Source: Spinacia oleracea (lineage: Eukaryota; Streptophyta; Magnoliopsida; Caryophyllales; Amaranthaceae). Taken from it: a stretch of 64,000 bases of DNA. The notes beneath the pieces are model-generated. The model had not been told where the DNA came from and did not search any database. It saw nothing but the letters and a program-made list of their open reading frames with translations. The DNA lies in contig NC_079488.1 of assembly GCF_020520425.1 (NCBI RefSeq), positions 86,967,285 through 87,031,284 on the forward strand. Direction: 5' to 3'. Position 1 is the first letter of the stretch, and each line of letters begins with the position of its first letter. Below are positions 4,401 through 63,521 of this stretch, piece after piece. Both the position numbers and the translations under genes were made by a program.

Positions 4401-4685
4401 GTGTACTCACCAGTGACGAGAAAGAGTGCAATGGTTTGGACCTTTGAAAGTTACCTTCGGAATTTGAACATCGCCATAGACAGATCCAAGCTTATCGAAA
4501 AAACGTCATAACAAGTGTTAGTGTGAGGAATACCGTCGGAGTAGAACTTAACGAGAGTTTCGCCGATCAAAAAACCGAGAAGGTGGTGAGAGACATGATC
4601 CGCGAAAGAATTGGTGCAACAAAGAAGAACATCAAAGGAAGAGACAAATTTGGGAGGAGAAGGTGGGGAGGGAGATCGAGGAAGT
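4401..4685 (-). pseudogene. Unidentified gene fragment at the CACTA insertion site
   Basis: On the minus strand a coding-like stretch reads about 50 residues (VLLCCTNSFADHVSHH, then GFLIGETLVKFYSDG), then shifts frame at a run of six T, and continues as DKLGSVYGDVPKVTFKG up to a good GTGAGT donor near 4411. I do not recognise the family. The run-of-T shift means it is broken or a sequencing error sits there. It abuts the CACTA end; restoring the site joins it to 19037 onward, whose sequence could be the 5' leader. No in-frame start codon is seen for the first part. Confidence 0.35.
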
Positions 4686-4890
4686 CACTAGTAGAAAAAT
4701 ATTGATTTGAGGCGTCACTTTTATATTGTTTTGCGGCGTTTTAGGCGTAGTAGCAAATAGAGTGGAAGCAAATGAATGGTATTGATTTGCGGCGTTAAAA
4801 AACGCCTCAAACCAATCATTCATTTGCGGCGTTATTAAGCAAAAACGCCTCAAATTAATTGAATTGTATGGTGGCGTTTCTACCTGAATG
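4686..4890. repeat. CACTA left terminal and subterminal repeat region
   Basis: The terminal inverted repeat is followed by several copies of TTGCGGCGTT or its complement AACGCCTCAAA. Some form short inverted pairs, for example the GCGGCGTT and AACGCC blocks near 4783-4808. The same motifs appear at the opposite end (18858-18925). Confidence 0.7.
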
Positions 4891-5247
4891 CCTCCAACTT
4901 TGGTAAAATTGCAGGAGTTTATACGCCGCGAATAATTTGTAATTTTTTTTAATAAATAATATATTTTGTGTAAACTAAACAATCCCAAAAATATAGAACC
5001 TGTACTCACGCCACATTTATACAACGTTCAAAAGTGTCATCAACCACCAATAACTTCCAAAAAACTTTGATTTTTACATATAAGTTAACCATCACATGTT
5101 TACAAAAATAAACCACCTAAATAGTTTCAAGTCTATAAATCTTTTACACTTCATACGTTACAAAATTGCACCAAAAATATAATAAGGAAATTATATATGA
5201 TTTTAATAGCATGAAACATCCACAAAAAGAGATCATTTAAGCGTTAA

Positions 5248-5331
5248 TTACACACAATGTTCGGTGAAGTATGATGCCCATTTGTCTCGTATTTCATCAA
5301 TTTGCTCATCGGTGAAAGGATCTCCACTCAT
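5248..5331 (-). pseudogene. Ulp1/C48 protease remnant, putative C-terminal exon
   Basis: A minus-strand stretch reads SGDPFTDEQIDEIRDKW, then ASYFTEHCV and TAA. Plant transposon Ulp1 proteases commonly end in a segment of the form F/YT.EEIDE.R.EWA, which this resembles. An in-frame TAA lies just upstream of its ATG, so as an exon it must begin at the AG at about 5327-5328 or be broken. The phase does not simply match the donor of the exon at 15762. The 10-kb tandem array lies between the two. The short length makes the call tentative. Confidence 0.5.
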
Positions 5332-5600
5332 TTATGTGCAAACCTAACAAAATAATATATATATCATAAAATTAGTTATCTTCGGTTAGATGATCTAAAA
5401 AGTTGTTGTCTCCTAGGTCCTCGAACCATGGCTAAGCATGGAAGGGCGAAGCCCTAGGAATCAAGAACCTTGACAACATGACAACAATATTATTCATGAC
5501 AATAAAGGAACCAAAAATCGTGTGTCTTTCCATCAATAAAACTTAGTCCAATGAAATAATAAAGGTCATATTTTGACTGTTATAGTCATATTCATGACAA
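5332..5600. other. Spacer between Ulp1 terminal exon and the tandem array
   Basis: Non-coding AT-rich DNA inside the CACTA element. A lone truncated monomer start (AAAGGTCATATTTTGACTG at 5561) precedes the regular array and probably marks its decayed edge. Confidence 0.5.
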
Positions 5601-7973
5601 TAAAGGTCATATGTTGACTGTTATAGTCGTTTTTGCTCCCAACTCTAACCCGTGAACTTAGATTGGTATTATAAACCCTTTAAATTTTTAACATACTTAC
5701 TATTAGGTTACTTAGACTCATTCTCATCTACTTTGGTCAAGTTATGCGCGTTTAAGACTTTAATGATCATTATAGGTCATATTTTGACTGTTATAGTCGT
5801 TTTTGCTCCCAATCCAACCCGTGAACTTAGATTGGTATTCTAAACCCTTTTAATGTTTAATATACTTAGTATTAGGTTACTTAGACTCATTCCAATCTAC
5901 TTTGGTCAAGTTATGCGCGTTTAAGGCTTTATTGATCAATAAAGGTCATATTTTGACTGTTATAGTCGTTTTTGCTCCCAACTCTAACCCGTGAACTTAG
6001 ATTGGTATTCTAAACCCTTTAAATGTTTAATATACTTATGATTAGGTTACTTAGACTCATTCTCATCTACTTTGGTAAAGTTATGCGCGTTTAAGGCTTT
6101 AATGATCATTATAGGTCATATTTTGACTGTTATAGTCGTTTTTGCTCCCAACTCTAACCCGTGAACTTAGATTGGTATTCTAAACCCTTTAAATTTTTAA
6201 TATACTTAGTATTAGGTTACTTAGACTCATTCTCATCTACGTTGGTCAAGTTATGCGCGTTTAAGGCTTAATTGATCAATAAAGGTCATATTTAGACTAT
6301 TATAGTCGTTTTTGCTCCCAACTCTAACCCGTGGACTTAGATTGGTATTCTAAACCCTTTAAATGTTTAACATACTTATTATTAGGTTACGTAGACTCAT
6401 TCTCATCTACTTTGGTCAAGTTATGCGCGTTTAAGGCTTTAATGATCATTATAGATCATATTTTGACTGTTATAGTCGTTTTTGCTCCCAACTCTAACCC
6501 GTGAACTTAGATTGGTATTATAAACAATTTAAATGTTTAATATACTTAGTATTAGGTTACTTAGACTCATTCCCATCTATTTTGGTCAAGTTATGCTCGT
6601 TTAAGGCTTTATTGATCAATAAAGGTCATATTTTGACTGTTATAGTCGTTTTTGCTCCCAACTCTAACCCGTGAACTTAGATTGGTATTCTAAACCCTTT
6701 AAATGTTTAATATACTTATTATTAGGTTACCTAGACTCATTCTCATATACTTTGGTCAATTTATGCGCGTTTAAGGCTTTAATGATCATTATAGGTCATA
6801 TTTTGACTATTATAGTCGTTTTTGCTCCCAACTCTAACCCGTGAACTTAGATTGGTATTCTAAACCATTTAAATGTTTAATATACTTAGTATTAGGTTAC
6901 TTAGACTCATTCCCATCTACTTTGGTCAAGATATGCGCGTTTAAGGCTTTATTGATCAATAAAGGTCATATTTTGACTGCTATAGCCGTTTTTGCTCACA
7001 ACTCTAACCCGTGGACTTAGATTGGTATTCTAAACCCTTTAAATGTTTAATATACTTATTATTAGGTTACATAGACTCATTCTCATCTACTTTGGTCAAG
7101 TTATGCGCGTTTAAGGCTTTAATGATCATTATAGGTCATATTTTGACTATTATAGTCGTTTTTGCTCCCAACTCTAACCCGTGAACTTAGATTGGTATTC
7201 TAAACCATTTAAATGTTTAATATACTTAGTATTAGGTTACTTAGACTCATTCCCATCTACTTTGGTCAAGTTATGCTCGTTTAAGGCTTTATTGATCAAT
7301 AAAGGTCATATTTTGACTGTTATAGTCGTTTTTGCTCCCAACTCTAACCCGTGAACTTAGATTGGTATTCTAAACCCTTTAAGTGTTTAATATACTTATG
7401 ATTAGGTTAATTAGACTCATTCTCATCTACTTTGGTAAAGTTATGCGCGTTTAAGGCTTTAATGATCATTATAGGTCATATTTTGACTGTTATAGTCGTT
7501 TTTGCTCCCAACTCTAACCCGTGAACTTAGATTGGTATTCTAAACCCTTTAAATGTTTAATATACTTAGTATTAGGTTACTTAGACTCATTCTCATCTAC
7601 GTTGGTCAAGTTATGCGCGTTTAAGGCTTTATTAATCAATAAAGGTCATATTTTGACTGTTATAGTCGTTTTTGCTCCCAACTCTAACCCGTGGACTTAG
7701 ATTGGTATTCTAAAACCTTTAAATGTTTAATATACTTATTATTAGGTTACTTAGAATCATTCTCATCTACTTTGGTCAAGTTATGCGCGTTTAAGGCTTT
7801 AATGATCATTATAGGTCATATTTTGACTGTTATAGTCGTTTTTGCTCCCAACTCTAACCCGTGAACTTAGATTGGTATTCTAAACGCTTTAAATGTTTAA
7901 TATACTTAGTATTAGGTTACTTAGACTCATTCTCATCTACGTTGGTCAAGTTATGCGCGTTTAAGGCTTTATT

Positions 7974-10900
7974 GATCAATAAAGGTCATATTTTGACTGT
8001 TATAGTCGTTTTTGCTCCCAACTCTAACCCGTGGACTTAGATTGGTATTCTAAACCCTTTTAATGTTTAATATACTTTTAGGTTACGTAGACACATTCTC
8101 ATCTATTTTGGTCAAGTTATGCGCGTTTAAGGCTTTAATGATCATTATAGGTCATATTTTGACTGTTATAGTCGTTTTTGCTCCCAACTCTAACCCGTGA
8201 ACTTAGATTGGTATTCTAAACCCTTTAAACGTTTAATATACTTAGTATTAGGTTACTTAGACTCATTCCCATCTACTTTGGTCAAGTTATGCTCGTTTAA
8301 GGCTTTATTGATCAATAAAGGTTATATTTTGACTGTTAAAGTCGTTTTTGCTCCCAACTCTAACCCGTGAAGTTAGATTGGTATTCTAAACCCTTTAAAT
8401 GTTTAATATACTTAAGATTAGGTTACCTAGACTCATTCTCATCTACTTTGGTAAAGTTATGCGCGTTTAAGGCTTTAATGATCATTATAGGTCATATTTT
8501 GACTGTTATAGTCGTTTTTGCTCCCAACTCTAACCCGTGAACTTAGATTGGTATTCTAAACCCTTTAAATTTTTAATATACTTAGTATTAGGTTACTTAG
8601 ACTCATTCTCATCTACGTTGGTCAAGTTATGCGCGTTTAAGGCTTTATTGATCAATAAAGGTCATATTTTGACTGTTATAGTCGTTTTTGCTCCCAACTC
8701 TAACCCGTGGACTTAGATTGGTATTCTAAACCCTTTAAATGTTTAACATACTTATTATTAGGTTACGTAGACTCATTCTCATCTACTTTGGTCAAGTTAT
8801 GCGCGTTTAAGGCTTTAATGATCATTATAGGTCGTATTTTGACTGTTATAGTCGTTTTTGCTCCCAACTCTAACCCGTGAACTTAGATTGGTATTCTAAA
8901 CCCTTTAAATGTTTAATATACTTATTATTAGGTTACTTAGACTCATTCCCATCTACTTTGGTCAAGTTATGCGCGTTTAAGGCTTTATTGATCAATAAAG
9001 GTCATATTTTGACTGTTAAAGTCGTTTTTGCTCCCAACTCTAACCCGTGAAGTTAGATTGGTATTCTAAACCCTTTAAATGTTTAATATACTTAAGATTA
9101 GGTTACCTAGACTCATTCTCATCTACTTTGGTAAAGTTATGCGCGTTTAAGGCTTTAATGATCATTATAGGTCATATTTTGACTGTTATAGTCGTTTTTG
9201 CTCCCAACTCTAACCCGTGAACTTAGATTGGTATTCTAAACCCTTTAAATTTTTAATATACTTAGTATTAGTTTACTTAGACTCATTCTCATCTACGTTG
9301 GTCAAGTTATGCGCGTTTAAGGCTTTATTGATCAATAAAGGTCATATTTTGACTGTTATAGTCGTTTTTGCTCCCAACTCTAACCCGTGGACTTAGATTG
9401 GTTTTCTAAACCCTTTAAATGTTTAACATACTTATTATTAGGTTACGTAGACTCATTCTCATCTACTTTGGTCAAGTTATGCGCGTTTAAGGCTTTAATG
9501 ATCATTATAGGTCGTATTTTGACTGTTATAGTCGTTTTTGCTCCCAACTCTAACCCGTGAACTTAGATTGGTATTCTAAACCCTTTAAATGTTTAATATA
9601 CTTAGTATTAGGTTACTTAGACTCATTCCCATCTACTTTGGTCAAGTTATGCGCGTTTAAGGCTTTATTGATCAATAAAGGTCATATTTTGACTGCTATA
9701 GCCGTTTTTGCTCACAACTCTAACCCGTGGACTTAGATTGGTATTCTAAACCCTTTAAATGTTTAATATACTTATTATTAGGTTACATAGACTCATTCTC
9801 ATCTACTTTGGTCAAGTTATGCGGGTTTAAGGCTTTAATGATCATTATAGGTCATATTTTGACTGTTATAGTCGTTTTTGCTCCCAACTCTAATCCGTGA
9901 ACATAGATTGGTATTCTAAACCATTTAAATGTTTAATATACTTAGTATTAGGTTACTTAGACTCATTCCCATCTACTTTGGTCAAGTTATGCTCGTTTAA
10001 GGCTTTATTGATCAATAAAGGTCATATTTTGACTGTTATAGTCGTTTTTGCTCCCAACTCTAACCCGTGAACTTAGATTGGTATTCTAAACCCTTTCAAT
10101 GTTTAATATACTTATTATTAGGTTACTTAGACTCATTCTCATCTACTTTGGTAAAGTTATGCGCGTTTAAGGCTTTAATGATCAATAAAGGTCATATTTT
10201 GACTGTTATAGTCGTTTTTGCTCCCAACTCTAACCCGTGGACTTAGATTGGTATTCTAAACCCTTTAAATGTTTAATATACTTATTATTAGGTTACGTAG
10301 ACACATTCTCATCTATTTTGGTCAAGTTATGCGCGTTTAAGGCTTTAATGATCATTATAGGTCATATTTTGACTGTTATAGTCGTTTTTGCTCCCAACTC
10401 TAACCCGTGAACTTAGATTGGTATTCTAAACCCTTTAAACGTTTAATATACTTAGTATTAGGTTACTTAGACTCATTCCCATCTACTTTGGTCAAGTTAT
10501 GCTCATTTAAGACTTTATTGATCAATAAAGGTTATATTTTGACTGTTAAAGTCGTTTTTGCTCCCAACTCTAACCCGTGAAGTTAGATTGGTATTCTAAA
10601 CCCTTTAAATGTTTAATATACTTAAGATTAGGTTACCTAGACTCATTCTCATCTACTTTGGTAAAGTTATGCGCGTTTAAGGCTTTAATGATCATTATAG
10701 GTCATATTTTGACTGTTATAGTCGTTTTTGCTCCCAACTCTAACCCGTGAACTTAGATTGGTATTCTAAACCCTTTAAATTTTTAATATACTTATTATTA
10801 GGTTAATTAGACTCATTCTCATCTACGTTGGTCAAGTTATGCGCGTTTAAGGCTTTATTGATCAATAAAGGTCATATTTTGACTGTTATAGTCGTTTTTG

Positions 10901-12390
10901 CTCCCAACTCTAACCCGTGGACTTAGATTGGTATTCTAAACCCTTTAAATGTTTAACATACTTATTATTAGGTTACGTAGACTCATTCTCATCTACTTTG
11001 GTCAAGTTATGCGCGTTTAAGGCTTTAATGATCATTATAGGTCGTATTTTGACTGTTATAGTCGTTTTTGCTCCCAACTCTAACCCGTGAACTTAGATTG
11101 GTATTCTAAACCCTATAAATGTTTAATATACTTAGTATTAGGTTACTTAGACTCATTCCCATCTACTTTGGTCAAGTTATGCGCGTTTAAGGCTTTATTG
11201 ATCAATAAAGGTCATATTTTGACTGTTAAAGTCGTTTTTGCTCCCAACTCTAACCCGTGAAGTTATATTGGTATTCTAAACCCTTTAAATGTGTAATATA
11301 CTTAAGATTAGGTTACCAAGACTCATTCTCATCTACTTTGGTAAAGTTATGCGCGTTTAAGGCTTTAATGATCATTATAGGTCATATTTTGACTGTTATA
11401 GTCGTTTTTGCTCCCAACTCTAACCCGTGAACTTAGATTGGTATTCTAAACCCTTTAAATTTTTAATATACTTAGTATTAGGTTACTTAGACTCATTCTC
11501 ATCTACGTTGGTCAAGTTATGCGCGTTTAAGGCTTTATTGATCAATAAAGGTCATATTTTGACTGTTATAGTCGTTTTTGCTCCCAACTCTAACCCGTGG
11601 ACTTAGATTGGTATTCTAAACCCTTTAAATGTTTAACATACTTATTATTAGGTTACGTAGACTCATTCTCATCTATTTTGGTCAAGTTATGCGCGTTTAA
11701 GGCTTTAATGATCATTATAGGTCGTATTTTGACTGTTATAGTCGTTTTTGCTCCCAACTCTAACCCGTGTTCTTAGATTGGTATTCTAAACCCTTTAAAT
11801 GTTTAATATACTCAGTATTAGGTTACTTAGAATCATTCCCATCTACTTTGGTCAAGTTATGCGCGTTTAAGGCTTTATTGATCAATAAAGGTCATATTTT
11901 GACTGCTATAGCCGTTTTTGCTCACAACTCTAACCCGTGGACTTAGATTGGTATTCTAAACCCTTTAAATGTTTAATATACTTATTATTAGGTTACATAG
12001 ACTCATTCTCATCTACTTTGGTCAAGTTATGCGGGTTTAAGGCTTTAATGATCATTATAGGTCATATTTTGACTGTTATAGTCGTTTTTGCTCCCAACTC
12101 TAATCCGTGAACATAGATTGGTATTCTAAACCATTTAAATGTTTAATATACTTAGTATTAGGTTACTTAGACTCATTCCCATCTACTTTGGTCAAGTTAT
12201 GCTCGTTTAAGGCTTTATTGATCAATAAAGGTCATATTTTGACTGTTATAGTCGTTTTTGCTCCCAACTCTAACCCGTGAACTTAGATTGGTATTCTAAA
12301 CCCTTTCAATGTTTAATATACTTATTATTAGGTTACTTAGACTCATTCTCATCTACTTTGGTAAAGTTATGCGCGTTTAAGGCTTTAATG
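7974..12390. repeat. 13-monomer (2,210-bp) tandem segmental duplication within the array
   Basis: Rare monomer variants recur at exactly 2,210 bp: GACTGTTAAAG at 8331/10541 and 9011/11221, GACTGCTATAGCC at 9691/11901, GCGGGTTTAA at 9821/12031, TAATCCGTGA at 9891/12101, CCCTTTCAAT at 10091/12301. The hybrid motif AATGATCAAT near 10177-10186 marks the junction between the two copies. Confidence 0.85.
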
Positions 12391-15100
12391 ATCATTATAG
12401 GTCATATTTTGACTGTTATAGTCGTTTTTGCTTCCAACTGTAACCCGTGAACTTAGATTGGTATTCTAAAACCTTTAAATGTTTAATATACTTAGTATTA
12501 GGTTACTTAGACTCATTCTCATCTACGTTGGTCAAGTTATGCGCGTTTAAGGCTTTATTGATCAATAAAGGTCATATTTTGACTGTTATAGTCGTTTTTG
12601 CTTCCAACCCTAACCTGTGGACTTAGATTGGTATTCTAAACCCTTTAAATGTTTAATATACTTATTATTAGGTTACGTAGACTCATTCTCATCTACTTTG
12701 GTCAAGTTATGCGCGTTTAAGGCTTTAATGATCATTATAGGTTATATTTTGACTGTTATAGTCGTTTTTGCTCCCAACTCTAACCCGTGAACTTAGATTG
12801 GTATTCTAAACCCTTTAAATGTTTAATATACTTAGTATTAGGTTACTTAGACTCATTCCCATCTACTTTGGTCAAGTTATGCTCGTTTAAGGCTTTATTG
12901 ATCAATAAAGGTCATATTTTGACTGTTATAGTCGGTTTTGCTCCCAACTCTAACCCGTGAACTTAGATTAGTATTCTAAACCCTTTAAATGTTTAATATA
13001 CTTATGATTAGGTTACTTAGACTCATTCTTATCTACTTTGGTCAAGTTATGCGCGTTTAAGGCTTTAATGATCATTATAGGTCATATTTTGACTGTTATA
13101 GTCGTTTTTGCTCCCAACTCTAACCCGTGAACTTAGATTGGTATTCTAAACCCTTTCAATGTTTAATATACTTATTATTAGGTTACTTAGACTCATTCTC
13201 ATCTACTTTGGTAAAGTTATGCGCGTTTAAGGCTTTAATGATCATTATAGGTCATATTTTGACTGTTATAGTCGTTTTTGCTTCCAACTCTAACCCGTGA
13301 ACTTAGATTGGTATTCTAAAACCTTTAAATGTTTAATATACTTAGTATTTGGTTACTTAGACTCATTCTCATCTACGTTGGTCAAGTTATGCGCGTTTAA
13401 GGCTTTATTGATCAATAAAGGTCATATTTTGACTGTTATAGTCGTTTTTGCTTCCAACCCTAACCTGTGGACTTAGATTGGTATTCTAAACCCTTTAAAT
13501 GTTTAATATACTTATTATTAGGTTACGTAGACTCATTCTCATCTACTTTGGTCAAGTTATGCGCGTTTAAGGCTTTAATGATCATTATAGGTTATATTTT
13601 GACTGTTATAGTCGTTTTTGCTCCCAACTCTAACCCGTGAACTTAGATTGGTATTCTAAACCCTTTAAATGTTTAATATACTTAGTATTAGGTTACTTAG
13701 ACTCATTCCCATCTACTTTGGTCAAGTTATGCTCGTTTAAGGCTTTATTGATCAATAAAGGTCATATTTTGACTGTTATAGTCGGTTTTGCTCCCAACTC
13801 TAACCCGTGAACTTAGATTGGTATTCTAAACCCTTTAAATGTTTAATATACTTATGATTAGGTTACTTAGACTCATTCTTATCTACTTTGGTCAAGTTAT
13901 GCGCGTTTAAGGCTTTAATGATCATTATAGGTCATATTTTGACTGTTATAGTCGTTTTTGCTCCCAACTCTAACCCGTGAACTTAGATTGGTATTCTAAA
14001 CCCTTTAAATGTTTAATATACTTAGTATTAGGTTACTTAGACTCATTCCCATATACTTTGGTCAAGTTATGCTCGTTTAAGGCTTTATTGATCAATAAAG
14101 GTCATATTTTGACTGTTATAGTCGTTTTTGCTCCCAACTCTAACCCGTGAACTTAGATTGGTATTCTAAACCCTTTCAATGTTTAATATACTTATTATTA
14201 GGTTACTTAGACTCATTCTCATCTACTTTGGTAAAGTTATGCGCGTTTAAGGCTTTAATGATCATTATAGGTCATATTTTGACTGTTATAGTCGTTTTTG
14301 CTTCCAACTCTAACCCGTGAACTTAGATTGGTATTCTAAAACCTTTAAATGTTTAATATACTTAGTATTAGGTTACTTAGACTCATTCTCATCTACGTTG
14401 GTCAAGTTATGCGCGTTTAAGGCTTTATTGATCAATAAAGGTCATATTTTGACTGTTATAGTCGTTTTTGCTTCCTACCCTAACCTGTGGACTTAGATTG
14501 GTATTCTAAACCCTTTAAATGTTTAATATACTTATTATTAGGTTACGTAGACTCATTCTCATCTACTTTGGTCAAGTTATGCGCGTTTAAGGCTTTAATG
14601 ATCATTATAGGTTATATTTTGACTGTTATAGTCGTTTTTGCTCCCAACTCTAACCCGTGAACTTAGATTGGTATTCTAAACCCTTTAAATGTTTAATATA
14701 CTTAGTATTAGGTTACTTAGACTCATTCCCATCTACTTTGGTCAAGTTATGCTCGTTTAAGGCTTTATTGATCAATAAAGGTCATATTTTGACTGTTATA
14801 GTCGGTTTTGCTCCCAACTCTAACCCGTGAACTTAGATTGGTATTCTAAACCCTTTAAATGTTTAATATACTTATGATTAGGTTACTTAGACTCATTCTT
14901 ATCTACTTTGGTCAAGTTATGCGCGTTTAAGGCTTTAATGATCATTATAGGTCATATTTTGACTGTTATAGTCGTTTTTGCTCCCAACTCTAACCCGTGA
15001 ACTTAGATTGGTATTCTAAACCCTTTAAATGTTTAATATACTTAGTATTAGGTTACTTAGACTCATTCCCATATACTTTGGTCAAGTTATGCGCGTTTAA
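12300..15100. repeat. 5- and 6-monomer (850 and 1,020 bp) duplications within the array
   Basis: GTCGGTTTTG occurs at 12931, 13781 and 14801; CCCTTTCAAT recurs near 12301, 13151 and 14171. Spacings are 850 bp (5 units) then 1,020 bp (6 units), showing successive local amplifications in the AIR9-proximal part of the array. Confidence 0.8.
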
Positions 15101-15537
15101 GGCTTTAATGATCATTATAGGTCATATTTTGACTGTTATAGTCGTTTTTGCTCCCAACTCTAACCCGTGAACTTAGATTGGTATTCTAAACCCTTTAAAT
15201 TTTTAATATACTTAGTATTAGGTTACTTAGACTCATTCTCATCTACGTTGGTCAAGTTATGCGCGTTTAAGGCTTTATTGATCAATAAAGGTCATATTTT
15301 GACTGTTATAGTCGTTTTTGCTCCCAACTCTAACCCGTGGACTTAGATTGGTATTCTAAACCCTTTAAATGTTTAACATACTTATTATTAGGTTACGTAG
15401 ACTCATTCTCATCTACTTTGGTCAAGTTATGCGCGTTTAAGGCTTTATTGATCAATAAAGGTCATATTTTGACTGCTATAGTCGTTTTTGCTCCCAACTC
15501 TAACTCGTGAACTTAAATTGGTATTCTAAACCCTTTG

Positions 15538-15761
15538 GCCTTGGATGATTAATTGGATTTAGTTAGGAATGAAGAAATGGAGATGAGAAAAGTCACCCCT
15601 GCTCAAAATAACAAAAGATAACTACGGGTTTCTCATTTCCCTTTGTATGGATCCATTAGTTAGGTTCTCAGAGGACCAAACTTCATACAATCATCTAGGA
15701 TTCTAGACGGAACTGAATTCCAGAAATAAATTAAACTATATAACAAGGATAACACCCTTAC
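15538..15761. other. Spacer between array and Ulp1 exon
   Basis: Non-coding sequence inside the CACTA element, probably intron of the Ulp1 remnant. No other feature seen. Confidence 0.4.
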
Positions 15762-15860
15762 CTTCTCTAAATCTGAAACATCATTGTCGCAGGAGACTAA
15801 ATCAAACATGTACCTCATTACGTAAAATCCACACTCAAGGCCTCCCTTTTGTTGAGCGCA
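15762..15860 (-). pseudogene. Ulp1/C48 cysteine protease remnant, catalytic-Cys exon
   Basis: A clean 99-bp minus-strand exon (acceptor CTCTAG before 15860, donor GTAAGG after 15762) encodes 33 residues including CAQQKGGLECGFYVMRYM. This matches the catalytic-cysteine region of SUMO/Ulp1-type C48 proteases found in plant CACTA and Mutator-like transposons (family pattern P.Q.....CG.YVM.YM). The Cys of ECGF would be the nucleophile. The His and Asp parts of the catalytic centre were not found intact. A possible upstream exon lies at 16394-16470, and a possible terminal exon at 5248-5331 beyond the tandem array. Probably a non-functional transposon ORF. Confidence 0.7.
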
Positions 15861-16393
15861 CTAGAGACAAGGGTAAGATTTAGATTAAGTAAAAACGGAA
15901 TCCATACAAATTATAAATATCAAATCATTTTTACGTGGGAATTTACCTCCACATATTTCCATAAAGGCTCTTTCCTGTTGACACGGTTGCCACACATCTT
16001 ATACCTTGTAAAAAAACTAGAAATTCCCAATTAATCTTAAGTTATAGTGCTTGGTTATATCCTTAAAAGCATACTTGATAAAAACATAATTACATAACGA
16101 AAAAACTAAACATACTTACTGTCTCACTATTGTCTTCATCTTCACTTTTCGACCTAAACTCAAGTGAACTGAATCGAAGTGATAGATGGTGCAATTTTTA
16201 ACAGTCGCTGGATCCAATAACAATTCCATTACCATTTTAATAATATAAGTAAAGAATATGAGCAACGCAGCAGACGCAACAACTTAGAACAAGGGTATAA
16301 AGAACAAGGGTTTTGAATTGTTTGGAGATAACAGTGTGCTAGTTCAGGACTCATACCTTACAAAAAACCAAAACTAAAACCAAAACCAAAACC
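15861..16393. other. Spacer inside the CACTA element
   Basis: AT-rich DNA between two putative Ulp1 exons; likely intron. A simple CCAAAA repeat lies at 16367-16394. Confidence 0.35.
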
Positions 16394-16470
16394 AAATGTC
16401 TTCAGGTAAGAAAGGAAGTGTTTTAATTCTTTGACTGGTACTGTTGAGCTACCCAAGTCAAGACTATGCA
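16394..16470 (-). pseudogene. Possible upstream Ulp1 exon fragment
   Basis: The minus strand after a TTGCATAG acceptor reads LDLGSSTVPVKELKHFLSYL. This resembles the segment of transposon Ulp1 proteases that follows the catalytic His strand (..LDS....ELK.F....). It is short and weakly diagnostic, but strand, order and spacing relative to the Cys exon at 15762 agree. Confidence 0.3.
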
Positions 16471-17336
16471 AGAAAAGAACATTATAAGATCAACATTACA
16501 AGAACATGTTCAAACATACTCCTGGAAATGCCCTGCTTCTGGTAAACTATGCCAGATTTTTAGAGGAGGTAGCAACACTGAAAATGAACATTTTATATGG
16601 TTACAATTTTCTGGTTTAATATTTTTGTGTTAGGTTAGACTGGTGATTTGGCTAAACCAGAAGAGTATTGCGAACGAGTTTAGCAGCAGCAGCAGGTAAT
16701 CCTAATGACAGGTAATCCAAACTTAGCAGCAACAACAACTTAGCATAACAACAGCAGCATAATAACAAGAAAATCAGAAGCAATAATACAACATACATCA
16801 GATAGCAGCAGCAGCATAACGATCAGACAACATCTACTTGAGTCATTTGGTGCAAATATAAACCTTAAAGTCGAGGAGATGAGTAAGGAACACATTTTCA
16901 ACAAAACTAAGTAAGATGACTAATTGTATAAGTATAAAGCGGGTAAGTAGGTGACTAAGTAAGATGGCGCGAACTGTTGCATTGTTGGTGGTAGTGGTGG
17001 TAGGATGAGGTAATTTTCTATACAGTGTCATATAATGCCCATTTTTCGTACAGGGTCAATTTAATGTTCATTTCTTTGTAGCACAATTAGCGATATGAAC
17101 CTTTACATATGCTAAATGATGATTTTGGCACTATACCCCATATTTATAATATCAGCTGTAATATGGTAAGATTGAGAGGAGAACTGTCCAACCCCAACAG
17201 AAGCAACCTTGTAATATAAATAAAGAGTAACAATCACAGGACCAGACTATGATCATGTTTCTATCTTCTACAAATAGAGCTAAGTAACGCAAGCTGACTA
17301 GTGAGTAGACTGAAAATATGCGCTTTAGTAACTTAC
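16471..17336. other. Non-coding CACTA interior
   Basis: Contains CAG/CAA-rich low-complexity DNA (about 16680-16815). No intact exon was found. It separates the AIR9-like capture from the Ulp1 remnants. Confidence 0.4.
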
Positions 17337-18121
17337 CACATCATCCCCAGCTTTGGTCTTCACTTGTGGCAGAAATATGAAGCGAGAATCCTGGCATTCA
17401 GGGGTAGCTGCCGACTTCCGACCAGATAAACTTGAACTTTGGTTCCGTGATGCAGACACAGTACCCTTTCTGATACCACTACTTACAGATGAAGACCGAG
17501 CTAAAGGCGAAGAAAGCTTGTTGCTTTTCCACTTGAAATCGGAGGGGATTGAACTGAAGGCATGGAGCTCTTTGATACAAACTTTTCAGTAATGCTGCTT
17601 GATGTACTATCTACTGATGAAGAAGAATTAACCTTCCTTGTTGAGGAACCATTCTTATTAGCAGAATCATTCTTATTTAAACTCGAGCTTGTAGGCGTCT
17701 TCAAAGTTCTAGCCCCAGGTGAAACTGGCCCTAACCTTTTTGTGTCTCTGACACCCACAGTGCTTAAATTTTTACCACCATCAGGAAGCTTGGACGTTCC
17801 CAGATCTGGCATTGATCGCCTTAATGGCTGTGAAACAGAAGGACCAGTGGGTTTTTTCTCCGCCATACCAGGACCAGTCCGCTGTTTTTTTTACAGGAAT
17901 TGACTGTTTTTCACCCAACCCACCAATGCTAATCCTTCTTGCACTTACAGGAACCACATTTTGACTCTGTGGACTCATGCTTACGCCTGATTTAGCCACA
18001 GCTGTTTTCGAAGTTAAACCATTCCTTGCTTCTGCTCTCCTATTAGTAGACCCAACAGCTATTCTCGTTGCTTCCATGATTTTTTCACCGCCACCAGCGG
18101 AACCAACTTGTAAACTCCTAC
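17337..18121 (-). pseudogene. Captured 5' part of an AIR9-like microtubule-associated protein gene
   Basis: From ATG at 18077 the minus strand encodes a Ser/Lys/Arg-rich basic N-terminus (VPVSARRISIGGLGEKQS, RTLKTPTSSSLNKN) ending with DSRFIFLPQVKTKAGDDV at a GTAAGT donor (17336). The end matches the DSRLIMLPQVE.KA.DD segment that in AIR9 precedes the leucine-rich repeats; the basic Ser-rich region is the microtubule-binding part in that family. Two frameshifts break the frame: an extra A in the A8 run near 17888 and a lost base near 17515. Only the leader and first coding exon are present; the LRR and A9 domains are absent. The preceding 5' UTR intron (18122-18610) and leader were captured too. 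It lies wholly within the CACTA element. Identity is from family memory, not alignment. Confidence 0.68.
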
Positions 18122-18840
18122 AAAAATAAGTACAATTTTACTATTTTAGGAAGCACGGGGTATAATAGGGTTGCATACACCAAAACACAGTAATTAAGAA
18201 TGATTCCTCGGCATTGTCACACCCAATATGCTGCCAATTATGCAGTATTTTAACCAAAATAGAAAGAAACACGCAACTTCAAGTGGAACAAACAATTCAA
18301 CAACACACAAAAACCGCAATTTAGAACTTCAATTGAACAGTGAGGAAATAGAAGAAATAGATCTGGAAATGCTGGAATTTCTAGGATGCCATGAAAATGG
18401 TGTCAAAGAACATTCGAAATTATGCCAAATTCTGAGCCATTTTAATTAGGGTTTACAGTACAGCGGGAGAGAACAAAGGAGAGGAGCAAGAGAGAAATAA
18501 TTCGACAATTCAAACCCAATTAAAGTAATTTGAGAGACTAAAACTAGGAGAATAGAGTAATTGAACGAAAATACGGAAATGATGAGGAGGAGTCGGTGGC
18601 GCATAATTACCTTAAATACGAACGGCGGCGGTGGAGATCAGTTCGAAGGAAAGACAGTGACGGCGGCGGTGGGGCTTCACTTTCCCAGCGAAATTCGATG
18701 GTGAAGAAACTATGGAGGTCAGGGTCAGTCCCAGTAGTTTGAAGGAAGGAAGAAGAAGTTTTGTGAAAGGACGACAAGGAAAATAAACAAAAGAAAGAAT
18801 TATGTGCGCGGGGGAAATTATTGTTTTAGGTTTCCTTGTT
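18122..18840 (-). pseudogene. Captured 5' UTR, intron and possible promoter of the AIR9-like fragment
   Basis: On the minus strand a leader with GGTAATTATG donor near 18610 and a TTTTTGTAG acceptor at 18122 fit a 5' UTR intron just before the AIR9-like ATG. The GC-richer leader (about 18615-18730, CCGCCGCC-type runs) resembles a host 5' UTR. Sequence up to about 18840 could include promoter. Confidence 0.45.
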
Positions 18841-19033
18841 TGAGACAGCCAGCAACTTTGCGGCGTTAATCATTCAGACGCCGCAAAATAATGATTTTTG
18901 AGGCGTCAGCTTCCCAATAACACCGTCAAATAATATTCTTTCACGTAATTTTTCCATTTTGTCATTTAATCAGAGACGTTTTGTAATTAACGCAGCTAAG
19001 TCGTGGCAGCAAATCAATATTTTTCTACTAGTG
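18841..19033. repeat. CACTA right subterminal and terminal repeats
   Basis: Contains TTTGCGGCGTTAATC, GACGCCGCAAAA and TGAGGCGTCAGC, matching the motifs at the left end, then the inverted terminus ending TTTTCTACTAGTG. Confidence 0.7.
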
Positions 19034-19036
19034 AGT

Positions 19037-21675: not shown

Positions 21676-24153
21676 TCAATCTTTCTTTCTACGCTTAGCA
21701 TCAACAGATGGAGATTTGCATGGAGATTTGCGTGGAGATGGCGCATAGTTAAGCCGATAACAAACAAGTGAAGGTCCAAATATCTTAAACTTCCCAGAAC
21801 TACTGAAGGCTGTTTCAGCATCAGAACGTCTCTTGAACACCACCCTGGCACATAGTTTTTTGGCCACTACTTCAGTCTCCGATTCCTTCAAGGAACCAAA
21901 GTGGCTGAAAACATTAATTAACTTGGTTTCTGTAGGCATAGAATCCATGTCAGTGAATTTCAGAGTTAAAGCTGTTGGTGAATCTTCCTGCTGCATTTTC
22001 TCATCCACTTGACCCCCTTCTGATGTACCATTTTCAGATCCACAATGCTGCTGAGAAGATGAAACTGTAGAGCCTATCTCCTGTGAACAGACAGATATTC
22101 CATCTACCTCGGAATGATCAGGCTCAACTACAGGCAACTTGACATCACTCAAGGAAGTTTGTTGCTCAAGGACTTTGATGGTTTTGTTGCTCAACTTGAC
22201 ATCTTCTCCAGCTTCGACGTCTGATAGTGTCGTAATTTCAGACTCGGGTGCCTTTGATTTAGACTTGGTAGCAGAAGAATACTCTTCTTTGCAAATTTCA
22301 GCAGGTCCTGACTCGTAAAGTCCTTCCTTATCACTGCTACTTGTACCTTCCTTTCCGGACTCCTCGTGCTTCTGCAAGAGCTCACTGTCAGGGACAATTG
22401 AATTTCTAAAATCGGAAATGAAAGTGACCATCTTACTCAACAAACTGAGTTCTTTGAGAGGTTCAATAGCAGCCAAGTGTAGCTCGGAAAGAATTACATC
22501 AAGAGAAGCATACTTAGAAGTGATTTTGCTGCATTGCTTGCTGTTACCTTTATCTTTCTTCCCATGAGATGCCAAATCAAGTTTAAGTAAAGGCGATGGC
22601 TGACTCAATTGACCAGCAACTCTTAGAATGCTTTCTCCGACTTTATAAGACGGTTTTGTGTCTTTAAATTGGATACTTGTTTCCAAGGGACTGCATTCTT
22701 TAGTTGTTTTGATCTCCTTTCGTCTCCTGGCAGAAGGTGAGATGGGTTTACTGCCAGATTTTCCTTTAGTTTCCTTGTCATCTTTCTTTTGTAAGCCCTT
22801 CTTACCTATCAAGTCAGAGAAGCACCTGGCTTTTTTAGTCGATTGTCCACCATCACTGGAAGTTTTCTTCCTTTTCTGAGGCCTGATATCATCTTCTTCA
22901 ATGGTTATTGGTGGAAGATTGCCATCAGCAATCACTTCACACTTCTCTTTGTCAGCAGTGACCGGAGCATCAGCCTCATTATTCACATACCCTATCAGGG
23001 ATCCAAATTCGGCTAGATGATAAATACCCTTCCATCTATAGAAGGCTGCCATTTGAGCTCGGGCTATCACGTGTTCAAGTCGGTCAACATCAGCATGTGG
23101 CCCTTGTGCCAAATCATTTACATAATCAAGAAACTTCACCGGCTGAAAAGATGATGCAGTAAAAAATCTGTCACCTCCTTCTCGAACTCTTGATTGTTCA
23201 AGGATTCCAGCATTCTCAACAACCTGAGTTTTTAATTGGTTGTAAACTTCGTCAACAATACAATGACAAGAGAGACCGAACTCTACCCGCCTAGAGGTTT
23301 CAACCAAAATACAATCCACAGCATGTCGAAAAGCATCCATACGAGTCTGTTTCACCATCTGGGAGAAATTCGGGGCAAAAGGCTTCAACTTTGTCTCGTC
23401 ATTCCAAGCAAAAGTTTGATCCCCAAAGTAACCCACAAAATAACCCTTTGAATTGAAATATTTTCTAGACTTCTCCGAAGCATCCCCAGATTCAAATATC
23501 TGTGCCGGCCACCAAGGATGGCTCTTCACTTTGCCCCAAACCAAATCTGATGCACAAAACCCACCTTTCTTTTTCCCCTTTTTCTTATCATTTCTGATAC
23601 ACTTGTCTAAATCAACAACAAGACTCACTCCCTTATGATTGGAAAACCCTCCTCCATCATCATCAACCCCACAGTCCTCTTTCTCACTCGTGGCAGCCTG
23701 ACTTTTAACCTCAACTGATCGGTTCTCCACAGTTTTCTTTGCCTCCACTTCTTTACCACTTCTATCCACATTAACAGGACTAAGAAAAAACTGTTGTGCA
23801 AACGAATTGATATTCGCCTTAATGGGATTATCCTGATTAATTACACCCTCAACAGCTACGAAATTCTTTCCTAAATCTTTTCCTTCCTTCTTAACACAAG
23901 CATCATTCACATAACCTATTTCACCCTTTAAACCGCTAGCCTCTCCTCTATCACTCAAATGCTCCGAAACCGCCTTCCAATTCCCGTCCCCGACATAAAC
24001 ATAATCAACCTTCATACCCTCAGACTCTCTCTTCCCCCTCAAACCCTCTTCTTGAACTAGGGTTTCATCCACAGGAACATCAGGCACACCATTCAATTCT
24101 GTACTGACGACATTTTCCGAACAAGGGTCGTCAGAAACAACGTTGAGTTGCAT
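21676..24153 (-). CDS. PWWP-domain chromatin protein (PDP-like), single exon
   Basis: An uninterrupted frame of 825 codons. After an acidic/polar N-terminus and a KKKGKKKGG basic run, residues about 200-262 form a PWWP domain (DLVWGKVKSHPWWPAQIF, then GYFVGYFGDQTFAW). In this family PWWP binds methylated histone H3 tails and DNA. The middle is Lys/Ser-rich with nuclear-signal-like runs (RPQKRKKTSS). Residues about 722-805 look like a degenerate RRM (ALTLKF...VFSHFGSLKESET...ARVVFKRRSDAETAF), the arrangement of plant PWWP proteins such as PDP family members, which work with chromatin-silencing complexes. The minus strand shows a probable 5' UTR intron: donor GTAATC near 24331, acceptor CTGTAG just before ATG. 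The last residues (SPRKSPCKSPS) include a small internal repeat. Confidence 0.9.
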   Translation of the reverse strand: MQLNVVSDDPCSENVVSTELNGVPDVPVDETLVQEEGLRGKRESEGMKVDYVYVGDGNWKAVSEHLSDRGEASGLKGEIGYVNDACVKKEGKDLGKNFVAVEGVINQDNPIKANINSFAQQFFLSPVNVDRSGKEVEAKKTVENRSVEVKSQAATSEKEDCGVDDDGGGFSNHKGVSLVVDLDKCIRNDKKKGKKKGGFCASDLVWGKVKSHPWWPAQIFESGDASEKSRKYFNSKGYFVGYFGDQTFAWNDETKLKPFAPNFSQMVKQTRMDAFRHAVDCILVETSRRVEFGLSCHCIVDEVYNQLKTQVVENAGILEQSRVREGGDRFFTASSFQPVKFLDYVNDLAQGPHADVDRLEHVIARAQMAAFYRWKGIYHLAEFGSLIGYVNNEADAPVTADKEKCEVIADGNLPPITIEEDDIRPQKRKKTSSDGGQSTKKARCFSDLIGKKGLQKKDDKETKGKSGSKPISPSARRRKEIKTTKECSPLETSIQFKDTKPSYKVGESILRVAGQLSQPSPLLKLDLASHGKKDKGNSKQCSKITSKYASLDVILSELHLAAIEPLKELSLLSKMVTFISDFRNSIVPDSELLQKHEESGKEGTSSSDKEGLYESGPAEICKEEYSSATKSKSKAPESEITTLSDVEAGEDVKLSNKTIKVLEQQTSLSDVKLPVVEPDHSEVDGISVCSQEIGSTVSSSQQHCGSENGTSEGGQVDEKMQQEDSPTALTLKFTDMDSMPTETKLINVFSHFGSLKESETEVVAKKLCARVVFKRRSDAETAFSSSGKFKIFGPSLVCYRLNYAPSPRKSPCKSPSVDAKRRKKD

Positions 24154-25507
24154 TTCTACAGCCTAATCAGTAAGATTAAGAAACAAAAAAAAAAAGCAAC
24201 GTTTCAATCTTGAGATGGTAAATGAAGTATACCAAAAAAAAAAAAAAAGTAACTAATAACTAAAATAAGAAGGCTAAAATGTAAAAATGGTGTCTTCCAT
24301 TAGAGATGAAGGTGGAGTGAAGAGAGATTACCTTGTGAAATGGATGATTGTATTTTCGCTTCTCAAGAACACCGAAAAGGATTTTGTCTCGGTTCCCTTC
24401 GAGATTTGGGAAAATGAGTAAGGGGTAATGAGGGAAACGGGGAAGGGAGAGGAAGACCCTTTTCTTCCCAAAATGGCAAGTCAAATTAGCTATAATGTCA
24501 CCTAAAATTTTAAGTTAATTAACTTTTTAGCTAGTTTGGTTAGAAGTTGTTAGCTATTAGATAGCTGCCTAGTTTGACTAATCGTTAGCTGTTTGTATTA
24601 ACTGGGTTAACTAGATATTTGAATTAGTTGTTTATGTAAAAATATTTGGTAAAATAGTTGTTAGCTGTTTAATATGGTAAATGACTATTAAGGATATTGT
24701 CACAATTTGTTATTTAATACTTTGTTTCTTATTAATATTAGACAAATGGTTTATTGTGATGATCATTTTCTTTTTATTTCTTGAATAAGCATTGAATAAA
24801 TAAAACAAGTATATTTAAATATATATATATTTTTAAATTAAAATTTTAAATATATAAATTCTTGATTTGCAAATAGAGAAATATTACCAATAATATTACA
24901 AGCATGATTGCAATAGTTTATAAGCGTTTAAAAGTTATAATATAAAGTTTAATACAATACACAAGTCTAGTATAACAAATACATTGAACATTCGAACATC
25001 AAGTAAGACGAAAATGAAGATCAGATGAAAGAGGCTAATGTAAAACCAAAATTCTGAATTTAACTTGTAAAGACACTAAAATTCTATACTCAATTAGAAT
25101 CAAAAAGTACAAAAAAAAATAAAAATTTACATGGATACAAAGTTGTGAAAGTTGTGAATAGAAAGAGAAAAATAAAGGCCAGACGAGGAAGGCTAATGTG
25201 TGAATAATGTTTTTAGTGGGAAATGTTAATGGTTGGTAAGAGTTGTAATTTTAGGCAATATTAAGACTAGGTACTAATTTGACGTTTATCCTCTCAAATC
25301 TCTAATTACAAAAACTTCCTATCCCTCATACCTCTCTTCCAATCCTCTCCTAACCAAATACTCTCAATTAGCTTTTTGTAAAAGTCAAACCTCTAATTTA
25401 TTAAAAAAAAACTCTTCCGCAACCCCACCCACCACTCCTGCCCAAACACCCATATGGCCATATTGGTTTTCCGCCAAAAGTCCTACAAAATCCTCCAGTC
25501 TTTAGCA
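24154..25507. other. Divergent intergenic region between PWWP gene and MCM8
   Basis: Holds the PWWP 5' leader and probable UTR intron (24154-24480), an AT-rich tract with repeated TTAGCTGTTTG-like words (24520-24700), and the MCM8 promoter side. A second E2F-like word TTTCCGCC lies at 25468-25475. No further gene seen. Confidence 0.5.
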
Positions 25508-55215: not shown

Positions 55216-55625
55216 TTTTAAACTGGAAATGAGGAATCTGGTGACCTCTAACTGGGACTCTAGTTATCCTTAAATGAAAATGAGGCGTCTGGTAACCTCG
55301 GTCTAGAACTTCTGGTCATCCTTAAGTGAAAATGAGGGGTTTGGTAACCTCGATCTGGGACTTCTGGTCATCCTTAAGTGAAAATGAGGCGTCTGGGACT
55401 TCTGGTCATCCTTAAGTGAGGCGTCTGGCAACCTTGATCTGGGACTTCTGGTCATCCTTAAATGAAAATGAGGCGTCTAGTACCTCAGTCTGGAACTTCT
55501 GGTCGTCCTTAAGTGAAAATGAGGCGTCTAGTATCTCGGTCTGGGACTTCTGGTCACCCTTAAGTGAAAATGAGGCGTCTAGTACCTCGGTCTGGGACTT
55601 CTGGTCATCCTTAAGTGAGGAGAAA
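55216..55625 (+). repeat. 51-52-bp minisatellite, about 8 units
   Basis: The unit TGAGGCGTCTGGTAACCTCG...GGGACTTCTGGTCATCCTTAAG starts at 55281, 55333, 55385, 55417 (a unit shortened by 20 bp), 55469, 55520 and 55571. Because 51 is 17 codons, the last units give an open frame with a repeated SVWDFWSSLSENEAS peptide; I regard this as incidental. Confidence 0.85.
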
Positions 55626-61300: not shown

Positions 61301-63521
61301 TGAAAATGTCTTCTTTTCTAAGCTTACCTTGAGTGTTTGAACCAAACGGCCCCTAAAGATGGCAATATTTCATCCCAGACATAGACCAACAAGATCTAGG
61401 TCACAAATAAGAAATATGCCATCTCCTACACTAATCCGAAGCCAATAAATTCAAAGAAATCCTATATACTTTCCTACCTTAAAGGTCATCATCTAAGGGT
61501 CGTTCTATTCGACTTATTTTGTCTGGACTTACATTATCTGATCTTATCTTAACTTATCTTATTTTATCTGAAATAAACTTAAATGTGTGTGAAAATGTTT
61601 ATCTGAACTTATTTTCTTTAAAATAAGTCACAATAAGTTGAATAGAACATAACATAAATCTTAAAACGTACACGATAAATACAATACCTCTATCAGATTA
61701 CCCCACGCCCATCCATACACCAGTAAAATCACCCTTATTTTTATAACAATGCAAGGTGAAATGGCAACTTGTAAAACCAGAAGTACAGCTCAAAAGTTTA
61801 TCTACCTCAGGTGTAAGGTGATCGTGGATGCCAGCATCCTCAGAAAGCAAACGGTATCTCTCAGAAGACAACCTAGATCTACCATTCCTGTCCCCATTGC
61901 GCCATCCTACAGGGCCAAACGATCTTGGATGTCTTGTCGAATGAGTCTCTCCCAGCAACTGAAGACTTTCATCAGAAGGAGCCACATGGCTCATACGTAT
62001 ATTGCCCATTGAAACAGTCCTATTAGGAGTGGATCTGTGAGAATAACTACGAACTCCCCTTGTATGAGATGGAGTAGGATGCAAACTTTGGGAAAGAGAA
62101 TTTCTGCTGGCAATGTGCTCATGATGATAGCCAGCCATTTCCCCAGAAGTATTCGCAATGCTGCTTCCAGCAAAGAAGTGATTACTCTCATGACCCAAGT
62201 TACTTGAGACTATAGTCCTTCCATGAGGAGCACCAGATACATGAATAGGAGTCCATTCCGGCAAAGGAACACTTGGGTTTTGACTAGGATCAACTGTACC
62301 AGGATGATCAATTGGAAACCTACTCGAACTAGGATGGTGAGGATAATTAGCTGGGAGATGGGTCCTAAAAACATCTGACTCCAGTTCTAATGTGGATCGG
62401 CTTCTCACGTTCCTCAAAGAAGTTTCACCTCCAATTGAAAGTTGATTGGTTCTGTAACTAGAAGGAACAGACAGTGATTCCCAATGATTATGTTGAGCAT
62501 CCACAGTTGATTTTTCCTGTCGCAATTCTGATGACGAAGATACATCTGATGAACTTCCAGCACAATAGTACCTACTTGTGCTGCCCCTTTCAGAAATAGC
62601 AGGGATCCCAGGGCTTTTCCTTTTGTATGGACCCCTTCCATTGCCCATTGAAAGATCAAAAAAGTTGTTTTCAACTGCGTAATTCGAGGAAGATGCATGG
62701 TGAACATGATTGTCTGGGGCCATAAAAACATTTCCAGCAGCAGATGGATGCATAGAATCACGAGAAGGATCAGAAGAATCAGGTTGATAATGGGGTGCAT
62801 TCACCATCTGGCTTGACGAAGAGTATCCACCTAATCTTGTAGCAGCATTCCATGGAGAACCATAATGAACTCGATCTACTGGTCCGTTCTCCACAGGATG
62901 AAAATTTGGGGCATTTTCTGCAGAACTAGTTCTTGCTGCAATTCAATGTGATTGTTATTAGTTGATGTACAATAAATCATGCAATTCTGCACATGGTGAG
63001 AACAAGGCAGAAAACATGAACAGACACAAATAACATACGACACCTACAGCCACCCCAATTTCATTTATCGTGAAGTAATTAGCATACTAACCCCAGCATA
63101 AGTGTGTATAATAATTAAGAATCCAAAGACACAATCATCACTCTGAAGTAAGACCAAAAGGTAAGAACAATCTCCAAACTATGGGCAGTGAACATAATAA
63201 ATGCATTAGACAAGTAATGGAACAACTTGCCTTTAGGCCTATGTAAGTTGCACAGACAGGAGATCTATTACCAAGCCAGAAATTCTCAACAATAGCGATC
63301 CTAAATTTCTAACTGGTAAATTACAAACCAACAAAACAAAATGCAAATAAGACTCTTAATTTCGTATCACATTACTGTTACAAATATAATTTGCATATAT
63401 ATATACAAAAATTAATACCAAAGTGCATGTAAGGATCTTCGCTATGCACAAGATTCCAGTGTTGGTCGGCCTCAGCCTCAAATATCTGCGACGATGTATT
63501 GTATATGTGTCGGTGTGCCAT
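58398..63521 (-). CDS. RING-H2 E3 ubiquitin ligase (ZFP1/RHG1A/MBR-like), five exons
   Basis: Exons on the minus strand: 63419-63521, 61806-62935, 59342-59440, 59126-59263, 58398-58547; 1,620 bp (539 residues), all in phase. It starts MAHRHIYNTSSQIFEAEADQ, as in plant ZFP1/RHG1A-type ligases. A long Ser/His/Asn-rich disordered region (exon 2) follows, then the conserved stretch LYGSRNFMDQHRDMRLDVD, ELLALGERIGSVNTGL, and a C-terminal RING-H2: CVICLEEYK, CGHDYHVSC, CPIC. The order C-C-C-H-H-C-C-C fits RING-H2, which recruits E2 enzymes to ubiquitinate targets. Substrate unknown. A GTGCAG acceptor at about 63574 upstream of the ATG points to a 5' UTR intron. Intron 2 (2.4 kb) holds tandemly duplicated DNA. 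Confidence 0.92.
59810..60205. repeat. Small direct duplication in RING gene intron
   Basis: GTGAACCACCTCAAGAGGAT and TTTTCAGCATAGTGAACCAC both occur near 59810-59875 and again near 60155-60190. Confidence 0.55.
60930..61640. repeat. About 285-bp tandem duplication, 2.5 copies, in RING gene intron
   Basis: The block GGCAATATTTCATCCCAGAC...CCTTAAAGGTCATCATCTAA occurs at 61073-61213 and 61358-61498. Each is preceded by an AATAAACTTAA.TGTGTGTG block (near 61000, 61285 and, partly, 61580). Confidence 0.75.

Follow-up and report, generated by a model that had tools for sequence, protein, structure and literature searches.

In Chenopodium quinoa, a 171-bp monomer is repeated 32.5 times close to the 3′ end of a CACTA transposon of the Jozin type, and the array is found in several copies of the element (PMC8978399). 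The element family is dispersed over the chromosomes, as seen by fluorescence in situ hybridization (FISH), and a Peptidase_C48 domain is known in related elements. The authors call the array captured and see no sign that the element generated it (PMC8978399). Thus, a CACTA-borne array of nucleosome length was already known from the plant family to which spinach belongs. Here we describe a 64,000-nucleotide stretch of the Spinacia oleracea genome (the window, C2:86967285–87031284), in which a 14.3-kb CACTA element has an array of 170-bp units in the predicted last intron of a Ulp1-type gene. The interpretation we favour, with a probability of about 0.8, is that of a CACTA transposon whose last Ulp1-gene intron carries a nucleosome-length satellite array, which is spread as cargo and re-amplified inside the element.

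The spinach element resembles Jozin in being a CACTA, in having related terminal inverted repeats (TIRs) that begin with CACTAGTAGAAAAA, and in the position of a nucleosome-length array near the 3′ end (PMC8978399). The monomers, however, are not significantly similar. The local alignment of the window monomer with the quinoa monomer scores 29, compared with 27.8 ± 6.6 for shuffled sequences, and 97 of 300 shuffles score as high; an older type of spinach array (locus L045, described below) scores 50 versus 36.6 ± 7.1, with 17 of 300 as high. A site in the last Ulp1 intron, the sharing of that site by two families, and size change between sibling copies are shown in spinach and are absent from the parts of PMC8978399 that were covered.

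Other systems share single features with the spinach array. The satellite CficCl-61-40 arises from the tnp2 gene of Jozin and is likewise a CACTA-tied satellite of the same plant family, but its monomer is ~40 bp and comes from transposase coding sequence, whereas the spinach repeat is a 170-bp noncoding intron repeat (PMC7320549). The spinach satellites Spsat1–3 are from the same host species and have different unit lengths, ~52, 365 and 325 bp (PMC6337768). SolSat01-171-s, with FISH signals at telomeric regions of chromosomes 1, 2, 5 and 6, has nearly the same unit length as the window repeat, a comparison made by length alone (PMC7840529). Satellite-like arrays are also carried genome-wide by mobile elements in the Pacific oyster, where the element is a Helentron and the host an animal (PMC7492417), and element-internal repeats likewise seed longer arrays in satellites from retrotransposon-derived tandem repeats, the elements there being retrotransposons and not CACTA (PMC7004042). 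Among the open-licence PMC papers listed in literature searches, none has a title or abstract opening that speaks of satellite arrays within Ulp1 introns, and PMC4158355 makes no mention of tandem, satellite, Ulp1, peptidase or large intron.

Structure of the array and its place in a Ulp1-type gene

The CACTA element occupies positions 4686–19033 of the window and encloses the array. It is bounded by perfect 24-bp TIRs, of which the left one, CACTAGTAGAAAAATATTGATTTG, starts at 4686 and its inverted counterpart ends at 19033, and both ends are flanked by the target site duplication (TSD) AGT. TIRs starting with CACTA at both ends, the 3-bp TSD and short subterminal repeats at both ends place the element in the CACTA (En/Spm) superfamily.

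Tandem Repeats Finder (TRF) detects the array with a period of 170 bp and a score of 17478. A unit of ~170 bp is typical of plant satellites, and at 9.9 kb, 58.5 copies and 93% matches the repeat is a satellite in the sense of a long homogeneous tandem array; a chance tandem repeat was rejected as an account of it. Anchors in neighbouring units are spaced by exactly 170 bp in 55 of 57 pairs, the 58 units have a mean pairwise identity of 0.93, and certain units repeat exactly within the array. There are two alternating subtypes, with identity at 0.94 for even lags compared with 0.92–0.93 for odd lags (lags 1–6). The subtypes differ by paired changes that preserve a palindrome, e.g. at window positions 9157–9166, where AATGATCATT (29 in the array) alternates with ATTGATCAAT (27). 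The predicted DNA hairpin of one unit shows no excess over expectation (z −0.71). Across approximately three units there are 15–19 stops per frame on both strands, and no unit-like sequence was detected in the window outside the array at the threshold used.

Three in-phase exons can be read on the minus strand, YKMCGNRVNRKEPLWKYVE, CAQQKGGLECGFYVMRYMFDLVSCDNDVSDLEK and VCT*MSGDPFTDEQIDEIRDKWASYFTEHCV. The middle exon has the acceptor TTGTCTCTAG and the donor AAG/GTAAGG (the slash marks the splice site), and includes the motif LECGFYVM, the Cys of which we take to be the catalytic residue. The terminal exon begins after the acceptor TTATTTTGTTAG; since the frame from this acceptor reads VCT*, the exon is interrupted in the window copy, and the Ulp1 gene of this copy is broken. 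Among 33 copies examined, the acceptor is readable in 29 (the others being L012, L019, L020 and L040). The frame is open in 24 of these, a TAA directly follows the acceptor in four (the window, L010, L014 and L028), and one, L041, has a frameshift. The donor GTAAGG is kept in all 16 copies with a matched Cys exon.

When the exon pieces are joined, with the terminal exon taken from L042, they match Pfam Peptidase_C48 at 21.5 bits, the cut-off being 20.7. With the upstream exon left out, the join of the two window pieces reaches 12.8 bits, under the cut-off, and neither window exon alone gives a match. Hence splice-site phase and conservation across copies are the main grounds for the exon call. 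Both exons flank the array in the window and in 8 of 20 loci of a first set read in 10-kb stretches, in 6/8 loci of a second set, and in one of the six loci of a third (L043). The array sits between in-phase splice sites of a gene of the Ulp1/C48 type, in what the sequence predicts to be its last intron.

A preliminary annotation of the window, termed here the earlier note, had described about 58 copies of a 170-bp unit between two Ulp1 exons, all within a CACTA element with intact ends. The copy number and the intact ends of the element are confirmed, and the coordinates of the Cys exon agree exactly with the present analysis. The terminal exon had been ended at 5331; the exon itself stands, but it extends to 5343. 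The intron placement, which had been linked to this exon, is now supported by the phase-0 splice sites and by the open frame in most readable copies. The assignment to Ulp1 is upheld by the profile match of the joined pieces, but not by the exons taken singly.

Dispersal of the array and change in its length

The genome searched has 894,210,420 bases in 242 contigs, of which C1–C6 are 115–189 Mb in length. A search by repeat sequence with a 681-bp array query, in which the best 39 of 903 candidates were scored, yielded 39 array loci besides that of the window, and these are dispersed over C1–C6. By coordinates, 37 of the 39 have the 3′ flank or the terminal exon of the window's CACTA family (family A) within 900 bp and in the expected orientation. 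In the other two (C2:48863472 and C5:21628957), the Cys exon is found 63 bp past the matched array. Twenty of the 39 loci were read in 10-kb stretches, together with parts of two more (L031 and L032); the TIR and the matching 3′ flank are present in 19 of the 20, and the TIR also in L031 and L032.

A 39-base piece of the unit has 692 matches genome-wide with at most two mismatches, compared with none for a reversed-pattern control, and the window and the fetched loci account for 352 of these. Among the matches listed, exact matches to the 39-mer represent 14 loci (on C1, and on C2 to 61.1 Mb), all of which were read. Twelve have an intact 3′ TIR; in L042 the flank is present and the TIR missing, and L019 is represented by the Cys-exon side only. 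No free satellite of the window type was met among the loci inspected. At L037 and L040 the flank is present, and the array either ends after 0.9 unit or is absent in the stretch read, followed by other sequence; these two loci were not used further. At C1:60927414–60983676 and C2:61061716–61104139, same-strand gene-5′ and gene-3′ ends of family A enclose a Cys exon and are separated by ~56 and ~42 kb; these stretches may be nested elements or single elements of very large size.

Eleven copies, that of the window among them, show both transposon ends, and all 11 have matching 3-bp TSDs. Assembled arrays in the various copies range from ~3 to 59 units. Short arrays occur at the same site, with ~5.6 units in 6/8 loci of one set and 6.7 units in another transposed group. 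Six loci share a common short array (L010, L016, L017, L024, L025 and L031), each with six anchored units, and unit identity among them is 0.99 at equal positions versus 0.95 at unequal positions. Given these position-matched units and the TSDs of the copies with both ends seen, the array was moved as cargo. It should be added that a split match to the L010 flank raises the left-flank divergence calculated for the '1138' group (mean 0.09), and the figure was not used.

Near-identical copies differ in array length by multi-unit blocks. L014 and L028 have three differences in 4,409 flanking sites, yet they contain 49 and 33 assembled units. In the alignment the 16-unit gap falls into three internal blocks, of 2, 12 and 2 units; both array ends are retained, and there are 0–2 differences per unit. 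The window copy, with 59 units, has 19 differences from L014 in 4,402 flank sites. Such block differences are what either unequal exchange or slippage would predict. An assembly artefact, in which repeat collapse or expansion produces the length differences, is very improbable: tandem arrays are prone to misassembly, but the units of L014 and L028 can be matched one to one apart from clean internal blocks, and the six loci of one transposed group hold their unit number.

Transposition spreads the array, and the array grows and shrinks inside the element. The steps involved may be envisaged as follows. A transposase supplied in trans would move the whole element, and the array would reach new loci as cargo. 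Within the intron, unequal exchange or slippage would duplicate and delete blocks of units and keep the array homogeneous. The intron may tolerate such change because splicing, or loss of the gene, would remove any cost. The window element is probably a nonautonomous CACTA transposon; it contains no open frames of at least 180 amino acids (a systematic search for a TNP2-type transposase in the window copy was not made). A sibling, L013, may be a source of transposase: on the strand of the gene it has a partial match to Transposase_21 (E 1e-46) together with a transposase-associated domain.

How satellite arrays are born and how they are dispersed to new loci is a long-standing question. The family provides a natural series, i.e. 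one array at one intronic site in many transposed copies of different length, with near-identical flanks as a clock, from which the rates and step sizes of array change are readable from sequence alone. It also shows that the intron of a transposon gene can come to contain a 10-kb array, and that satellite-like DNA can disperse without being free satellite DNA. The earlier note had raised the mobile element as a route by which such arrays could spread, and had asked whether other copies of the family have shorter arrays at this position; both points are supported, as is the link of the repeat to CACTA elements. Its further proposal, that the array grew inside the intron, holds for change in size between near-identical copies; for the first birth of the repeat, the intron is one possible place and an ancient capture the alternative.

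Older arrays and the origin of the repeat

Diverged arrays occupy the intron in which the young ones lie. Beside the family's terminal exon, L045 and L044 have units in this intron that are ~83% and ~80% like the modern consensus, and the units of L046 are intermediate (92%). In L045, one unit with the CCCGTGAACTTA block, which is standard in young arrays, is found among six with an older block. A search with the L045 array (the best 40 of 2,356 candidates scored) gave rows that were grouped as 40 diverged array loci. By coordinates, 21 of the 40 are within 900 bp of an end of family A or of a second family, B, and L053 was added by reading. One old-type array, at C4:114552869–114558456, shows three matches ~1.58 kb apart, which suggests a higher-order repeat.

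Family B (L050, L051 and L052) has different ends, subterminal repeats CCCAAGCACTTGA and the terminal exon FTTDEIKCVRDKLARFITNECL, which is 36–41% identical to that of family A over 22 residues. In L051 and L052 an ATTATAG/ acceptor puts this exon in frame and in phase 0; in L050 it does not. The array starts just upstream of the terminal exon in the sense of the gene and has the same orientation as in family A. There is no blastn match between the family-A 3′ flank and family B, and no clear Cys exon was seen in 1.3 kb that cover the right edge of one family-B array and the sequence past it. Family B is thus a second CACTA family in which related arrays occupy the same site, and the arrays of the two families are 82–83% identical.

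We suggest that the array is an old resident of the CACTA lineage, repeatedly re-amplified, and not a recent capture into the window copy. In a speculative extension, to which we give limited credence, several CACTA families of one plant lineage would have the array as a standard and long-lived module of their last Ulp1 intron, kept and exchanged by intra-array recombination, so that CACTAs act as both nursery and distributor of a nucleosome-length satellite.

Several observations weigh against residence and re-amplification inside the element. In L047 and L048 the terminal exon is present, and the 1.1–1.5 kb read contains no array. Flank and unit divergence are uncorrelated over 34 copies (Spearman −0.02), and arrays therefore do not simply co-diverge with their hosts, which weakens simple co-descent; we take the absence of correlation as homogenisation within arrays. 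The gene is damaged in a number of copies, with stops within an exon in L020, L036 and L043, in addition to the four terminal exons with TAA, the L041 frameshift, and a change of Cys to Arg in the motif of the short-array subfamily. For 18 of the 40 diverged array loci, no link to a CACTA end closer than 900 bp was established: C5:105175579 is 14 kb from a family-A flank, three are 6–26 kb from a family-B end, 13 lie outside the examined loci, and the last is an old array at C1:110014616, on one side of which 1.3 kb were read and showed no CACTA end. A third CACTA-like element, beside L009, has a related array that is inverted relative to the exon. Finally, the A and B arrays are much more similar than the terminal exons, which points to exchange or separate capture. 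As an observation on the third element, its end (L049/L009, C1:17699200–17701751), with subterminal TTGCAGCGTACA, is apparently inserted into an array, and is followed by a decayed Ulp1-like exon and then by the related inverted array.

Capture long ago, as distinct from a first birth of the repeat in the intron, is possible. According to this explanation, which we regard as unlikely though deserving of attention, a pre-existing satellite was taken up by CACTAs, on one occasion or more, and transposition then spread it. In its favour are A and B arrays that resemble each other much more closely than their flanks do, the array at C1:110014616, the inverted array and the 13 diverged loci outside the examined set, and the quinoa authors read their own case in this way (PMC8978399). 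Yet all 39 window-type arrays lie beside a family-A flank, terminal exon or Cys exon, the site in the last intron and the orientation are the same in families A and B, and old heterogeneous arrays occupy the same intron as young ones.

Exchange between families is a doubtful alternative. Here the array would have been born once and later passed from one CACTA family to another by recombination or gene conversion, with the array as a recombination hinge. The discrepancy between array identity and exon identity in families A and B, together with the missing blastn match of the flanks, is in keeping with such a transfer, as is the strong homogenisation within young arrays. On the other hand, no array with a family-A end on one side and a family-B end on the other was met, in data that include no search aimed at such arrays and one family-B right edge.

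The insertion of a CACTA element into an ordinary chromosomal satellite, with an array that surrounds or abuts the element by chance, is rejected as having almost no probability left, for although the unit length is like that of plant satellites and SolSat01-171-s is of similar length (PMC7840529), the array lies inside the TIRs in the 11 copies with matching TSDs, 37/39 loci have the common flank, and the 39-base piece has just 692 matches in the 894-Mb genome.

Other features of the element and the window

Table 1. Positions of the array, the gene and the transposon parts in the window
Feature	Position	Strand	Remarks
TSD AGT, left copy	4683..4685	.	
CACTA TIR, gene-3′ side	4686..4709	+	TIR of same kind in 19/20 fetched array loci
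Subterminal GGCGT/ACGCC repeats, gene-3′ side	4709..5012	.	10 motifs
Ulp1-type terminal exon, VCT*MSGDPFTDEQIDEIRDKWASYFTEHCV	5248..5343	-	in-frame TAA in window copy
Predicted last intron of Ulp1-type gene	5344..15761	-	10,418 bp, phase 0 at both ends; mostly filled by array
170-bp tandem array	5594..15536	+	58.5 copies, 93% matches; alternating subtypes
Ulp1-type exon with putative catalytic-Cys motif CAQQKGGLECGFYVMRYM	15762..15860	-	
Preceding Ulp1-type exon, YKMCGNRVNRKEPLWKYVE, donor /GTAAAT	15947..16004	-	5′ limit inferred
Captured host-gene fragment	16932..18407	-	in window copy and two siblings; source-like locus on C5, 91% and 76% identity
Subterminal region, gene-5′ side	18395..19033	.	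3 GGCGT/ACGCC motifs
CACTA TIR, gene-5′ side	19010..19033	-	
TSD AGT, right copy	19034..19036	.	

The gene-5′ subterminal region is 93–94% like that of three other family members and 69–86% like that of the remaining listed ones. The captured host-gene fragment has a source-like locus at C5:50436720–50438804; ~0.5 kb of the source is absent from the window copy. Among the best 40 of 200 candidates scored, the fragment is full-length only in the window copy, L014 and L028. A Pfam search of the fragment matched no family; it presumably resembles the plant microtubule protein AIR9.

Outside the CACTA element, at a distance of ~2.6 kb, a long open reading frame on the minus strand (21676–24162) has a PWWP domain (61.3 bits). 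A 414-amino acid open frame at 61698–62942, also on the minus strand, has no Pfam match. A separate tandem repeat with a 51/52-bp unit is present at 55227–55618; compared by length alone, its unit is the same as that of the spinach satellites Spsat1/SpSat02-52.

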